The translations under genes were made by a program, and so were the position numbers. Source: Thiotrichaceae bacterium (lineage in GTDB: Bacteria; Pseudomonadota; Gammaproteobacteria; Thiotrichales; Thiotrichaceae). From it: a DNA stretch of 42,452 nt. The DNA is taken from contig JALSLX010000113.1 in assembly GCA_026988095.1 (NCBI GenBank), forward strand, positions 1 to 42,452. Reading direction: 5' to 3'. Position 1 is the first letter of the stretch; each line of letters begins with the position of its first letter. A model generated the notes under the pieces. The model saw only the letters and a list, made by a program, of their open reading frames with translations. It ran no database searches and was not told where the DNA came from. Positions 117 to 40,724 of the stretch are shown here, in pieces.

Positions 117-197
117 AGCCACCCCCCCTCTTTTTCGTTGATTTGTGTTTTTGGGAGACTTAACGTACAAATCATCGAAAAAAGGGGGAGATGGGTA
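117..197. repeat. C-tract palindrome, copy 1
   Basis: Left arm starts GCCACCCCCC and carries the core TTTTTCGTTGATTTGT (131-146). The right arm has ACAAATCATCGAAAAA (167-182) followed by a G-run and ATGGG. The core arms pair with one mismatch around a spacer of about 20 bases. The outer ends are bounded by TA (ctagcc / gggtaa). The copy sits between the convergent amt and MOSC genes. It belongs to the same family as the elements at 7555, 21371, 25065, 28346 and 40556. Confidence 0.85.
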
Positions 198-6900: not shown

Positions 6901-7475
6901 GGGATATTTGCTTCACCCGCTAATTTAACAGCGGCGTGCAAATATTCATCTTCGTTTTCTCTACCTGTGCGTTGCAACTCCAGATAATAGCGATTGGGGA
7001 ATACTTTTTGCCATTCTTCTAATCGAATTTTGGCCTCATCTTCATTACCTGCAAGCAGTGAATAACCTACATCACCATCGCGCCCACCAGATAAGGCTAT
7101 CACACCTTCGCTATGATCAATAATCCACTGACGAGTCACTCGTGGTATACCTAATTTCTGCCCTTCCATATAAGCAAGAGAGATTAATTTAGTCACATTG
7201 TGATAGCCCTTATTATTCTGGCAAAGCAGAATCATGTGATAGAGCAACGACTCGTCATCTTCATCTTCGAGCAAAACGTCTACGCCAAAAATGGGTTTTA
7301 AACCCTGTCCTCGCGCCGCACGGTAAAATTTAACCATACCAAATAGGTTATTTTGGTCGGTCATCGCGACAGCAGGCATACCCAGCTCTTCTACTGCTGG
7401 CATAAGCTGTTTGATGCGAATCGTGCTGTCTACGAGCGAATATTCTGTGTGTAATCGGAGGTGAACAAAGCTCAT
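3978..7475 (-). CDS. dnaE: DNA polymerase III alpha subunit
   Basis: 1165 residues, full length (E. coli 1160). Catalytic subunit of the replicative polymerase. The N-terminal PHP domain begins FVHLRLHTEYSLVDS. The polymerase active-site aspartates are in PDFDIDF (D402 and D404, matching E. coli D401 and D403) and in VKFDFLGLR (D554, matching D555). The finger region (YRPGPLQSGMVDDF, GADMLRRAMGKKKPEEM, YGFNKSHSAAYA) is intact. An HhH region and an OB-fold (TLVGLISSVSIRATDRGKMA) follow, with the tau-binding C-terminus ending KVNLLY. The ribosome site is weak. In E. coli dnaE directly follows lpxB-rnhB; here two small genes and a C-tract palindrome intervene, so dnaE may have its own promoter in 7476-7560. 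Confidence 0.98.
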   Translation of the reverse strand: MSFVHLRLHTEYSLVDSTIRIKQLMPAVEELGMPAVAMTDQNNLFGMVKFYRAARGQGLKPIFGVDVLLEDEDDESLLYHMILLCQNNKGYHNVTKLISLAYMEGQKLGIPRVTRQWIIDHSEGVIALSGGRDGDVGYSLLAGNEDEAKIRLEEWQKVFPNRYYLELQRTGRENEDEYLHAAVKLAGEANIPVVATNDPRFLKTEDFEAHEARVAIHDGFTLDDARRPKNYSEQQYLRSADEMIELFSDIPEAIENTLEIAKRCTVELTLGKNYLPEFPIPEGMTEAEFFSEESRKGMELRYKELFDTSADDFAEIRKPYDERLQVELDVINGMGFPGYFLIVADFIQWSKDNDIPVGPGRGSGAGSVVAYALRITDIDPLKYDLLFERFLNPERVSMPDFDIDFCMDKRDLVIDYVARTYGRDKVSQIITYGSMAAKAVVRDVGRILNHPYGFVDRIAKLIPFEMKMTLTKAMDQEPDLKLLYDEDEDVKGLMDLALELEGLTRNVGKHAGGVLISPSTLVDFTPLYCEEGGGSVVSQFDKDDVEAVGLVKFDFLGLRNLTIIDWAVKSINVQRDKKGEEPIRIEDIPLDDEKSFELLQAAKTTAVFQLESHGMKELIKRLHPDVFEDIIALVALYRPGPLQSGMVDDFVARKKGDQKVTYPHPDLEPILKPTYGVIVYQEQVMQIAQVLAGYSLGGADMLRRAMGKKKPEEMAKQRSIFMEGSGKNNVEPANATEIFDLMELFAEYGFNKSHSAAYALVSYQTIWLKAHYPAAFMAAVLSADMDNTDKVVIFVDDCQQFGLEVVPPDINRSEYKFISEHEGNVIFGLGAIKGAGESAIAEIIDERNANGPYQSMAEMCQRVKSRKISKRILETLIKAGAFDTLGINRNSLFEGLPEIVRIANQQHRDEEIGQNDLFGGSVAVTQDEKVTPRLEEWDDKTRLRIEKLAIGLYLTGHPIDAYEEEVKQLRSRSLRQMAEDDGKTKYQKKPTTLVGLISSVSIRATDRGKMATIVLDDKTGYYEFRIYDKNIELFEHLLIKEEMLVVEGTLNTLYGTSDIRFYANILLNMEGARNKFLRRLQLNIDKSQTANGLLDKLDELLPTHIQNTQKQDQMQRDICPVYVKYETDNEKAELRLGADVSAPLADDDIKRLRKVLGEDKVNLLY

Positions 7476-7554
7476 TTAGATGAAAAGTCTCATATAGGAT
7501 CTGAAATAGTCTCAAACAGATATAAAACTGTTTAAATAGTGGCTATTTACTATC

Positions 7555-7633
7555 CCACCCCCCCTGTTTTTCGATGATTTGTACGTGTTTTGGGTATTTT
7601 CACGTACAAATCATCGAAAAACAGGGGGGGTGG
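7555..7633. repeat. C-tract palindrome, copy 2 (perfect 33-bp arms)
   Basis: The left arm 7555-7587 and right arm 7601-7633 are exact reverse complements over 33 bases, around a 13-base loop (7588-7600). The arm begins CCACCCCCCC, continues TGTTTTTCGATGATTTGT and ends ACGTG. It ends three bases before the YkgJ stop codon and lies about 80 bases upstream of dnaE. Because the outer end is a G-run and not a T-run, it does not look like a standard intrinsic terminator. Confidence 0.95.
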
Positions 7634-21370: not shown

Positions 21371-21472
21371 TAGCCCACCCCCCCCTTTTTTCGATGATTT
21401 GTATCATGTGGGAGAATAAACTCACAAGAGGAGACAATACAAATCACCGAAAAAAAGGGGGGGGATGGGCTA
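21371..21472. repeat. C-tract palindrome, copy 3
   Basis: Left end TAGCCCACCCCCCCC followed by TTTTTTCGATGATTTGTAT; right end ATACAAATCACCGAAAAAAA, a G-run, then ATGGGCTA. The outermost seven bases (TAGCCCA/TGGGCTA) and the inner core pair, with one mismatch (GATG/CACC) and a one-base offset near the ends. The spacer is about 31 bases. It lies about 60 bases upstream of pyrH, inside the 409-base gap 21308-21716, which otherwise holds only the foldback element at 21499-21660. Confidence 0.9.
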
Positions 21473-21498
21473 TAAAGAAGTACCTTTTTACGCTTTTA

Positions 21499-21660
21499 CC
21501 TGAATCCGTGACTTCAATATGGATAACAGGGCGTAAGATATTGGTTTAGCACGAGATTTTAAAAAATCTTAGCTTCACCCATAGGTTAAGCGGGTATTTT
21601 TTAAACTCGTGATGAATCAATAGCTTGCGTACTGTGCCGTAGTGAAGTCACGGATTCAGG
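21499..21660. mobile_element. MITE-like foldback element, 162 bp, with 5-bp target duplication
   Basis: Terminal inverted repeats are perfect over 18 bases: CCTGAATCCGTGACTTCA (21499-21516) and TGAAGTCACGGATTCAGG (21643-21660). Direct repeats TTTTA flank both ends (21494-21498 and 21661-21665), as expected for a target-site duplication. Inside, CACGAGATTTTAAAAAAT and ATTTTTTAAACTCGTG form a second, nested inverted repeat. No coding capacity. It sits between dctM and pyrH. No second copy was seen in the window. Confidence 0.75.
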
Positions 21661-21716
21661 TTTTAGTTTAGCCTGAGCTTAATCCGCTCAAGCTAGATAC
21701 CTTTTTAGCAAGAAGG

Positions 21717-25064: not shown

Positions 25065-25129
25065 CCCACCCCCACTCTTTTTCGATGATTTGTACGTGCT
25101 TTTAATAAAAATCATCGAAAAAGAGTGGG
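25065..25129. repeat. C-tract palindrome, copy 4
   Basis: CCCACTCTTTTTCGATGATT (25071-25090) pairs exactly with AATCATCGAAAAAGAGTGGG (25110-25129) around a 19-base loop. The outer left side continues CCCCACC. The copy lies between the divergent dctP promoter region and the lipoprotein gene. Together with the sigma-54 promoter and the palindrome it accounts for most of the 529-base gene-free gap 24772-25300. Confidence 0.9.
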
Positions 25130-25300
25130 AAACGGCCAATGCATAAGCATGATAAGCACTCCTTAAATACGAGCGAGCCTACTCATGCTCCTTCTTATGT
25201 TCCTTCGTCTGAAATAGTTGTACTTCTTAAATTTTCTGCTACCTTAGTATTCAATGGCTTAATTAAATTATTAAAAAACAATAATGGGGTTTTTAAAACA

Positions 25301-28300
25301 ATGAACATATCTGCCAAATTAAAGTGGGCTAGCATATTCGTAATATCAATTTTTATGCTTTCAGCCTGCGGTGGAGAAAATTCGACAAAATCTCTTACCG
25401 AGCAAGATCAAGCCATTGAAAAAATAGCAACGTTTGCAAAATTTGGGGCTACTAAGCCAAAACTAAAAGATTATCAAGAGGCAGGCTTAACAGGCGTAAA
25501 TGAGGATAACTTAGAAGCGTTAAATAACATCGTTAAAGGCCTTGTTTATACGGATGTAGATACCAAAGAAGAACTACAAGCCATTTTAGATACACTCAAT
25601 ATCACACTCCCAGACACGACTAAACCCGTCATAACTCTAAATGGAAAAGCCTCAATTACGCTTAAAAAAGGTGATAGCTATACCGAAGCTGGTGCAAACG
25701 CAACGGATGACAGAGACGGCAATATAACTGTAATTATCACAGGATCAGTCAATACTGAAAAGGAAGGAAGCTACACAATTAGCTATACCGCCGAAGACAA
25801 AGCTAAAAACAAAGCAAGTGCAACAAGAACAGTTATTGTTGAAAGTACATCATGTGTTCAAGTCATAACGCATGCCTACAATCCTAAAACGAACGAAGAA
25901 AAAGATTTCCCAACTCCTTGTGATGTCCCTGAAGGTTGGGTTGTAGGTACACCGCCTCCCCCTACAACGACCATACCAAAAGATACTATCGCTCCCGTAT
26001 TAACACTATTAGGCAAAGCATCAATCACCCTAACCGAAGGTGATGTGTATGTAGATGCAGGCGCAACAGCGAATGATAATAAAGACGGTGATATTACTTT
26101 TCGCATAGCGACCGTTAACCCTGTAAATACTGCAATCCCCAAGACTTATGCAGTCACCTATAACGTAAAAGACAATGCGGGAAATGCTGCACAACAGATA
26201 ACACGAACCGTCAAGATCAACCCTTTAGTAATTATCAAAAGAACCTATGGTATTGCAGGCTCAAGCAAAATTGCAGCAGCAGTTCAAGAGTCTGAATTTG
26301 GAAACTCAACAATCATAACTCCCGTAGGAATTACCGCCAAAAATCCTGTACCTGTTGTTTTGTTTGCCCCAGGGTTCAAAAATATAGATTATACAAAATA
26401 TCAAACCTTGCTTAATTTCATCGCCAGTCATGGTTATGCCGTTATATTTGCAAATGATACCAATGGTTTTAGCGCTGATGATTTACTAAAACATATCAGG
26501 CAAATGACAAGCAACCCAGCAATCAAGCCTTTGTTAGATACATCAAGAATAGGCGTTATAGGACATTCATCAGGCGGTGGTCATGCTTTTAGAATATTAA
26601 AAGAATTAAGTGATGCCAACAATGAAGGCTGGGGCGAAAATGGTCGTTTCCTTATGGCTTTAGAGCCTTGGTTTGCATTTGATTTGACTGAGAAAGAGTT
26701 AAAAACACTTCCGAGTAACACAAATATTATTATTCAACAATATGGTAAAGGTGGCAATAATATTGAAAATAGCACTGATGCTAGAATTCCATTAACTGAG
26801 TACTACCTTTTGGATTCAATCGCAGATAAACAAAAAGACTACCAAATCTTTGTAGATGCCGACCATGGATACCCTTATGGCAGTGGTGCATACAGTGCTA
26901 TGCAGGGAATTCTTAAACCACTTGATGGCCTTATGGAACTTACTTTCCAAAAGACACCCGATGCTGGCGCGCAACAAACTGCCTTAGAAGTCGGAAATGA
27001 CGACCCCTACAAAAATGGTCACGGGATACAGGAAGTTAAGCTGATTCGTGATTATAAATACCCTTGTCATGGTGCGACAACGATTATAGATTATTGCGCA
27101 ATTTTCTCAGGGGCAATACCACCTGAATCCACTTTTGACAGCATTGCAACTAACACCGTAAAAGCAAAACCCGCACTTGGAGAATCTTTCGTCGATCAAG
27201 AATTCGGCAAGACCATAACAAGATTTACAGACAGAATAAATCAAGCCGATACGCCTCTAGTAGACAAAGACGGCAATAGAGTTAGCAGAGGAAATTCGCA
27301 ACCCTACCCTAAAACCCAAGCATGGAATAGCGATATGACCATGATAAGAATGAGATACAGGCTATACGATGCCAAAACACTCAAAGAGTTAGCAATCACT
27401 AGCGGTACAGATAGCCTCCATGATTTATATTCTATAAATGGCGCACTCAATGAAATGAAATGGTCAAGTGTAGACCCTAATGTTTTCTATGGCGTTTATA
27501 ACGGAACAGGCAACAATAATGGTAGCTTTTGGAAAGGCACTATCAATACCGCAAAAACTAGCATTAAATGGGATTTAGTAAAATCATTTGCTTCAACAAA
27601 GTTCACTTATGATCGCTTCACCCTTGGCAAGTACGAAGGTAATATTGATTACAATGATAAGTATGTCGTCTTCGCTGCACGAAAAAAAGGTCAAAAATAC
27701 CTCACAGCGCTTGTCTATGACATTCAAAACAACACTGTAAGAAAATCACTAGAATTCCCCAATGTAGCTTGGCCAGATAATGGGCAAGTATTTGATTGGA
27801 TGTCTGTCTCACCACTTGGCAAACACATCCTAATGAGTACCGGTGGTAAAATAGACCAATACGATATGGATTTGAATTTTGTACGAGCACTTGCAAGCAG
27901 TGGCGGTCATGGTGACTTGGGTGTCGATCAAGATGGTAATGAAGCTTATGTTCAATATGAATATGGAAAAGATAATGGCATCTGGATATATCGACTCAAT
28001 GACGGCTTACGAACTCGCCTACTCCCCGACAAATACAATGGGGGTCATATATCCTGTCGAAACTATAAACGCCAAGGTTGGTGCTACGCCAGCACAACAG
28101 AACCTGGCTACAAAGAAATTATCGCGATTAAGTTAGATTATTCAGGCCCTAATAACCACATTGTTAATCGCTTTGCTCAAACACATACCTCCGCAACGGC
28201 ACAATCAATGGGAAATATTAGCCCAGACGGTAAACAAATACTGTTTGAAAGTGATTGGGGAGATAGCAAACTTCACTGGGCAGATAAAGATACTTATCTT

Positions 28301-28309
28301 GTTAGATAA
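25301..28309 (+). CDS. Multidomain lipoprotein: Ig-like repeats, alpha/beta-hydrolase, beta-propeller-like C-terminus
   Basis: 1002 residues. The chosen start (25301) gives a lipoprotein signal peptide with lipobox LSAC (Cys23); an upstream ATG at 25139 would bury it. Residues 30-100 form a short helical repeat-like segment (DYQEAGLTGVNEDNLEAL). Two DUF5011/HYR-type Ig-like domains follow (about 105-183 and 228-305), joined by a Pro/Thr-rich linker. An alpha/beta-hydrolase spans about 310-565, with the nucleophile elbow GHSSGG (S423) and a likely catalytic His in DADHGYPYG (H522). The remaining 400 residues look like a beta-propeller (VSPLGKHILMSTGGKIDQYD; NISPDGKQILFESDWGD). It is probably exported and anchored in the outer membrane, acting as an esterase or polymer hydrolase; the substrate is unknown. 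It sits between the dctPQM and dctBD genes but on the opposite strand. Confidence 0.85.
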   Translation: MNISAKLKWASIFVISIFMLSACGGENSTKSLTEQDQAIEKIATFAKFGATKPKLKDYQEAGLTGVNEDNLEALNNIVKGLVYTDVDTKEELQAILDTLNITLPDTTKPVITLNGKASITLKKGDSYTEAGANATDDRDGNITVIITGSVNTEKEGSYTISYTAEDKAKNKASATRTVIVESTSCVQVITHAYNPKTNEEKDFPTPCDVPEGWVVGTPPPPTTTIPKDTIAPVLTLLGKASITLTEGDVYVDAGATANDNKDGDITFRIATVNPVNTAIPKTYAVTYNVKDNAGNAAQQITRTVKINPLVIIKRTYGIAGSSKIAAAVQESEFGNSTIITPVGITAKNPVPVVLFAPGFKNIDYTKYQTLLNFIASHGYAVIFANDTNGFSADDLLKHIRQMTSNPAIKPLLDTSRIGVIGHSSGGGHAFRILKELSDANNEGWGENGRFLMALEPWFAFDLTEKELKTLPSNTNIIIQQYGKGGNNIENSTDARIPLTEYYLLDSIADKQKDYQIFVDADHGYPYGSGAYSAMQGILKPLDGLMELTFQKTPDAGAQQTALEVGNDDPYKNGHGIQEVKLIRDYKYPCHGATTIIDYCAIFSGAIPPESTFDSIATNTVKAKPALGESFVDQEFGKTITRFTDRINQADTPLVDKDGNRVSRGNSQPYPKTQAWNSDMTMIRMRYRLYDAKTLKELAITSGTDSLHDLYSINGALNEMKWSSVDPNVFYGVYNGTGNNNGSFWKGTINTAKTSIKWDLVKSFASTKFTYDRFTLGKYEGNIDYNDKYVVFAARKKGQKYLTALVYDIQNNTVRKSLEFPNVAWPDNGQVFDWMSVSPLGKHILMSTGGKIDQYDMDLNFVRALASSGGHGDLGVDQDGNEAYVQYEYGKDNGIWIYRLNDGLRTRLLPDKYNGGHISCRNYKRQGWCYASTTEPGYKEIIAIKLDYSGPNNHIVNRFAQTHTSATAQSMGNISPDGKQILFESDWGDSKLHWADKDTYLVR

Positions 28310-28345
28310 ATTATCAATACAGCTTATTAAATAGCTATTTTTATA

Positions 28346-28622
28346 CCCACCCCCCAATGCCGTTGAATTAAGCTACAAGTCATTGTTTTTGCGGGTTCAA
28401 CACAGTCTAGTGTTAGCTCGTCATTGCGGTGAAGAGCGCAATCCACGGTCGAAACATCGCCTGATCGTAAATGGATACTGGTATTCACCAGTATGACGAG
28501 TATTATTTTTACTATCAATCAATCGCTTAGGGCTTAATTCAACAGCATTGCCCACCCCCCCTTTTTTTCGTTGATTTATACGTGGTTTTAAATACAAATC
28601 AACGAAAAAGGGGGGGGATGGG
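28346..28622. repeat. C-tract palindrome, copy 5, split by an insertion
   Basis: The intact part runs from 28551 (CCCACCCCCC, then CTTTTTTTCGTTGATTT) to 28622 (AAATCAACGAAAAAG, G-run, ATGGG). Both arms carry GTTG where other copies have GATG. The 5' end of the left arm (TATACCCACCCCC) is found instead at 28343-28354, separated by a 196-bp insertion. With the insertion removed, the element reads TATACCCA ... TGGGTATA, a longer inverted repeat. It sits in the 346-base convergent gap 28310-28655. Confidence 0.8.
28355..28550. mobile_element. 196-bp MITE-like element inserted in a C-tract palindrome
   Basis: Ends CAATGCCGTTGAATTAAGC (28355-28373) and GCTTAATTCAACAGCATTG (28532-28550) are inverted repeats of 19 bases with one mismatch. 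The 9-base direct repeat CCCACCCCC flanks it (28346-28354 and 28551-28559). A smaller inverted repeat (CTCGTCAT ... ATGACGAG) lies inside. No convincing gene; a 63-codon minus-strand frame crosses it but looks like chance. Confidence 0.7.
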
Positions 28623-40555: not shown

Positions 40556-40724
40556 TACCACCCCCCCTCTTTTTCGCTGATTTGTACGTGAATTAGCTAT
40601 CGAAGGTGTAACGATATACTTTTAGTGAGCTTATCGTTTTGTTGTTTAAAACGCATAACTCAATTATTAGAGCTTGCCGTTTAATCTCTAGGCGCACAAA
40701 AAACCAAAAAATAGGGGGGGTGGC
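40556..40724. repeat. C-tract palindrome, copy 6 (long spacer, degenerate right arm)
   Basis: The left arm is intact: CCACCCCCCC, then TCTTTTTCGCTGATTTGT and ACGTG (40558-40590). The right arm (about 40691-40723) keeps only the G-run with TGG and an A-rich stretch (GCGCACAAAAAACC), so pairing is poor. The spacer is about 100 bases rather than 10-30. It lies in the 278-base divergent gap between sixA and argS, about 30 bases from the argS start. Confidence 0.75.

Follow-up and report, generated by a model that had tools for sequence, protein, structure and literature searches.

What are the long palindromes that lie between the genes of this DNA? The window analysed here, the whole stretch of 42,452 nucleotides from a Thiotrichaceae bacterium, had been described in an earlier note as holding six copies of a C-tract palindrome, perhaps a mobile element that inserts at TA. 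We followed these copies through the window, through the rest of its genome (G000, 2.26 Mb) and through related genomes. The most likely interpretation that emerges is that the repeated unit is a DNA uptake signal, or a site subject to the same kind of drive.

Palindromes in the window

Six palindromes are present as counted earlier, but the copy placed at 28346 is not a separate one: it is the left end of an element at 28551-28621 that was split by a MITE. A common core, TTTTTCGATGATTTGTACGTG, is matched six times in the window with up to three mismatches, where 0.01 matches are expected, and 160 times in the genome, where the reversed control gives none. The palindromes are therefore real rather than a product of chance, and the earlier suggestion of a large family dispersed between genes is borne out.

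Site 1 (119-194) is an inward pair with arms at 119-147 (+) and 166-194 (-) and a loop of 18 bp. Site 2 (7555-7633), in the gap upstream of dnaE, is a perfect inward pair. Its 29-bp arms (7555-7583 and 7605-7633) enclose a loop of 21 bp and pairing continues to 7587/7601, so that 7555-7587 and 7601-7633 form the perfect 33-bp arms described before. Site 3 (21374-21468), an inward pair with a loop of 34 bp, lies upstream of an amino-acid-kinase gene (247 aa; pyrH by gene order). At site 4 (25065-25134) the inward arms are 25065-25094 (+) and ~25107-25134 (-), the right one degenerate. The neighbouring gene (25139-28309) encodes a protein of 1056 aa that contains Ig-like surface domains and gives a weak match of PET-hydrolase-like type (PF12740, E 3e-7). 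Site 5 (28551-28621) is an inward pair with a loop of 12 bp, whose severed left end, TATACCCACCCCC, lies at 28342-28354 (+). At site 6 (40558-40723) the inward arms are separated by a loop of 108 bp, in which part of another dispersed repeat is found. The window has no match in Rfam.

The MITE that interrupts site 5 is 196 bp long (28355-28550), is flanked on either side by the 9-bp duplication CCCACCCCC and ends in CAATGCCGTTGAATTAAGC and GCTTAATTCAACAGCATTG. We take these ends to resemble those of IS4 and call it IS4-like. Further copies occur on contigs C65, C89 and C124, one adjoins an arm at C54:12508, and in another genome of the genus (G010, L072) a similar end abuts a C-tract. The element may favour C-tract sites. 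Two other repeats lie near the palindromes. One, of ~170 bp (21494-21668 in the window; copies 85-98% identical), numbers tens of copies in G000, G001 and G010, with lower numbers in G005 and G006; for several of them (C113, C76, C81, C57 and C152) a C-tract site lies within ~100 bp. The other is the genus-wide repeat (~126 bp, several small hairpins) of which 40602-40684 is a part; it is found inside long loops, and in G001 (C77, C78) it forms tandem arrays with a period of ~107 bp.

Arm anatomy and pairing

The palindrome itself is not the unit. The unit is a polar arm of ~29 bp, CCACCCCCCCTSTTTTTCGATGATTTGTA, with a second type, CGCTGTTTTGTA. A C-run in the arm is followed by two T-tracts ~10 bp apart, at one and two helical turns from the core. 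About 200 arms, paired or alone, occur in G000, an approximate total taken from the matches listed. Their anatomy was read in 300 kb of stretches chosen because they bear copies. These contain 62 inward pairs, 11 inside-out pairs and 51 apparently single arms, and a looser search found partners for several of the latter, leaving ~45 solo.

Arms within 300 bp of each other are always inverted and never point in the same direction. Inward loops measure 2, 11-13, 20-23, 33-34 bp or longer, with almost none between (the best-fitting period is 10.5, with R 0.83 and a null maximum of 0.48), and the gaps of inside-out pairs are 25-28, 35-39 and 46 bp, plus one of 71 bp with an imperfect arm. Loops differ from copy to copy in length and in sequence. 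Their mean identities, 0.46 and 0.37 (shuffled 0.33 and 0.30), leave them scarcely alike, and the arms are far better conserved. One loop is common to three copies, which indicates that a whole pair can be copied. The inward pairs lie in convergent (17), tandem (32) and divergent (5) gaps, the divergent ones being avoided, and solo arms have no orientation relative to genes.

Phased A/T flanks

When the G000 copies are aligned, the A/T content upstream of the arm oscillates every ~10.3 bp and is phase-locked to the arm. The phasing power is 0.31 for pairs and 0.62 for single arms, against null maxima of 0.05 and 0.11, and the period, measured from -6 to -112, is 10.28 bp (95% CI 10.24-10.32). 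For the flank of site 2 (7455-7554), the ~10.3-bp phasing is the family average from the aligned copies and not a property read from this copy alone. In G000 and G007 the phased runs extend 100 bp or more from the arm on its upstream side; in G000 they are detectable to -110 and beyond. The locking is specific to arms, at 386 times noise compared with at most ~4 times for T-runs, C-runs and core fragments elsewhere in these stretches. A genome-wide A/T periodicity was rejected as the cause, the autocorrelation of the stretches containing only the 3-bp coding period. In G007 (24 sites) the pattern is as strong, still 25 times noise between -125 and -60, and in G003 and G004 it is weak (~11 times noise). 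The phased DNA around the arm is probably curved.

A genus-restricted motif

The form of the site at the level of the genus is ACCCCCC-N2-S-TTTT-N6-TTT. Searched as ACCCCCCNNSTTTTNNNNNNTTT, it has 61-510 copies in seven of the 12 genus genomes (G004 510, G007 423, G008 284, G011 227, G009 161, G000 107, G003 61), that is hundreds across the genus and not a handful. Counts are low in the other five (G010 12, G002 8, G001 7, G005 4, G006 0), and 47 genomes of other genera have 0-2 copies each. Several of the genomes are incomplete. LpxA has its nearest solved structures among those from Gammaproteobacteria. The reversed control gives 0 in every genome searched. Some of the copies in G001 and G005 probably reflect bin contamination or a close strain, since contigs there (L032, L033, L073, L082) are 98-100% identical to G000. 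A search of all genome contigs for the exact core returned one match, on a 4-kb contig (L040) of a Cyclobacteriaceae MAG. This contig, from a study of a hydrothermal deposit, carries a perfect G000-type pair and is possibly misbinned. The viral contigs and plasmids searched contain no match to the site, and a literature search with the core string gave one irrelevant match.

In G003, G004 and G007 (~110-400 kb each) the 10-mers with the highest over-representation are the motif or pieces of it; CCCCCCTACT, for example, is seen 91 times in G003 against 0.08 expected. Perfect copies exceed single-mismatch copies in these genomes (79:31, 27:9 and 17:4, respectively) and in G000 (97:33, in stretches chosen around matches). 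Site density is 0.2-0.3 per kb. Most G003 sites are intergenic (102 of 120 in 400 kb, 84% of that DNA being coding).

Orientation with respect to replication was assessed in G003, the other genomes being fragmented. Where the skew is about -0.06 or lower, G003 sites are oriented with GC skew at 46:6. In the stretches read (L356-L375) the C-rich strand of the site coincides, with few exceptions, with the C-rich strand of the chromosome, presumably the lagging one. Base composition may account for some of this bias, as a run of 6-8 C could by itself give roughly 3:1.

Dialects at common positions

Position-sharing was looked at in four loci, namely mnmH, hyuA and two gaps. Arms occur in frame inside mnmH (tRNA 2-selenouridine synthase), a hyuA-like 5-oxoprolinase gene and a xylulokinase-like gene. 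In mnmH, the G000 arm amounts to ~10 extra residues (~30 bp) relative to G001, G003 and G006. This codon position is occupied by AAAGKACACCCCCC(C)ACTTTT in G004, G007, G009 and G011 and by a similar C-run in G008, and it is the strongest case of a common site. G007 likewise has its own version of the site at the hyuA linker used in G000. The MnmH and HyuA linkers of relatives (L315, L310, L308, L293) contain in-frame insertions next to the C-tract that are long and variable, and one of these includes tandem repeats. Judging from these insertions, elements acting at the level of DNA seem to shape protein linkers.

The remaining two loci are intergenic. The dnaE upstream gap, which holds site 2, has sites of other spelling in four of the six readable genus genomes (G003, G007, G008 and G010) and none in G001 and G006. 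The gap of site 3, before the kinase gene, has sites in G002, G003, G004, G008, G010, G011 and probably G007. Both gap results are only moderately unexpected, because gaps are site-rich in general.

A proposed uptake signal and its alternatives

We propose, at a probability of roughly 0.45, that the arm belongs with USS and DUS as a DNA uptake signal-like site, in a lineage without a known one. The analogy is based on features reported for USS and DUS (PMC1626085, PMC3630211, PMC1852404, PMC1939737): perfect copies are in excess, dialects follow clades, sites occupy permissive positions, inverted pairs lie at the ends of genes and are scarce in divergent gaps, and AT-rich segments come after the core with a spacing of helical turns. 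Under this model, the C-run core and the T-tracts one and two turns on, within phased A/T DNA, would form a recognition site to which a receptor of the type IV pilus/competence machinery would bind. DNA of the same species would then be taken up preferentially, and, as the imported DNA recombines, molecular drive would multiply matching sites in intergenic gaps and in protein linkers that tolerate them. A shift in receptor specificity would cause sites to be rewritten in place, giving dialects, and inverted pairs may be retained as hairpins at gene ends. ComEC is above the cut-off in 11 of the 12 genus genomes. Its presence also in G006, which lacks the motif, counts against uptake, as does the arrival of the mnmH site with extra bases, since USS arise by substitution. 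The loop common to three copies, the low density of sites, the long phased flank and the orientation in G003 also fit an uptake signal poorly.

As of 2006, uptake sequences were known only in Pasteurellaceae and Neisseriaceae (PMC1626085), and we found no later report from another lineage in the literature searched. More tentatively, the sites may represent a third independent origin of uptake sequences, in a gammaproteobacterial-type genus, with a C-run core, at least 100 bp of phased A/T and dialects rewritten in place between congeners, even inside coding genes. If so, comparison with a third lineage would make it possible to test whether biased uptake by itself spreads such repeats, and the series of dialects at common positions within one genus would make rewriting visible in progress.

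The main alternative, which we consider less likely than uptake, is a chromosomal site for a DNA-wrapping or DNA-bending protein (gyrase, a nucleoid protein or another factor), with the core docking the protein, the phased A/T DNA wrapping and pairs binding a symmetric complex. The tight locking of the A/T pattern to the arm, its reach in G000 and its strength in G007 all fit such a site, as do the quantised loops and inside-out gaps. Gyrase-site motifs span 130 bp and have wings that are periodic, and gyrase is bound by BIME-2 repeats as well (PMC6379681). However, the motif of E. coli gyrase has a period of 10.75 bp, outside the confidence interval of the arm, the pattern is weak in the site-rich G003 and G004, and rapid change of the core among congeners is unexpected for a conserved housekeeping enzyme. 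An E. coli-type gyrase site was rejected on the mismatch of period and the asymmetry of the arm pattern. Were the arm to bind a wrapping protein instead, its definition by sequence, its phasing and its fast-evolving core would make it unusual too.

A non-autonomous mobile element, either a MITE or REPIN-like, with the arms as terminal repeats, is improbable and largely refuted. Copies are many, three share a loop, and the inverted arms are ~30 bp long. The TA bounds described in the earlier note, which had suggested an IS630- or Correia-type MITE, reduce to a weak tendency: 16 of 58 pairs have a common dinucleotide at offset 1 (8.4 expected), and the flanks contain no longer signal and no clear target duplication. 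Against mobility stand the solitary in-frame arms in conserved genes, the sites that relatives carry at matching positions in another spelling and the conservation of arms around loops that are scarcely alike. No mobilising gene was found enclosed by arms, and the two loci that were read from one solo arm to the next contain ordinary genes. A RAYT gene was sought in G000 (92% complete), where the RAYT-type Y1 transposase is represented by two truncated fragments only.

It is very improbable that the sites are transcription terminators of a favoured sequence. They do lie near gene ends and are depleted in divergent gaps, and the 11 inside-out pairs fold into a G-C hairpin with T residues after it. 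The inward pairs, which are the majority, lack a T tail (there is none at 7555), and solo arms lack both a hairpin and an orientation to genes, in agreement with the earlier view that the palindromes are not simply terminators; G003 sites often fold poorly. For the G003 motif, a G/C block between two T-tracts with poor folding in many copies, a terminator role was rejected. A polar chromosome signal like Chi or KOPS, with the G-rich strand on the leading strand, would suit the polarity with GC skew in G003 and is the least probable reading, being highly doubtful given that G000 sites are mostly inverted pairs in which polarity cancels, that phased A/T tracts are foreign to Chi and KOPS, and that sites are mostly intergenic.

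Comparison with known systems

Like the Correia/NEMIS and RUP MITEs, the sites are short, palindromic and numerous with AT-rich flanks; unlike them, they lack a clear target duplication, include solo arms and occupy the same positions with species-specific sequence. They share with BIME-2/REP and strong gyrase sites a dispersed, intergenic, palindromic arrangement and long phased A/T as in the gyrase motif (PMC6379681), but differ in their period (10.3 rather than 10.75), asymmetry, fast-changing core and the lack of an intact RAYT in G000.

The DUS of Neisseriaceae have clade dialects, permissive positions and inverted pairs (PMC3630211). The arm sites resemble them in having species dialects, in being the most over-represented repeat, and in their permissive positions and inverted pairs at gene ends; DUS have a different core and no flanking AT segments. 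Hairpin pairs of both USS and DUS are found preferentially in tail-to-tail gaps, and few of them lie head-to-head (PMC1852404). USS and DUS reach ~1 per kb, a density above that of the arm sites, and have no orientation bias, in contrast to the strong, replication-linked orientation with GC skew in G003. Relative to the USS of Pasteurellaceae, the arm has an unrelated core of C-runs and a phased A/T flank that, in two species, is much longer. In the USS the core is accompanied by two AT-rich segments at a spacing of about one helical turn, and in H. influenzae its perfect copies are in excess of those with a single mismatch (PMC1626085). The arm is alike in both respects, and also in its inverted pairs and clade-specific types (PMC1626085, PMC1852404).
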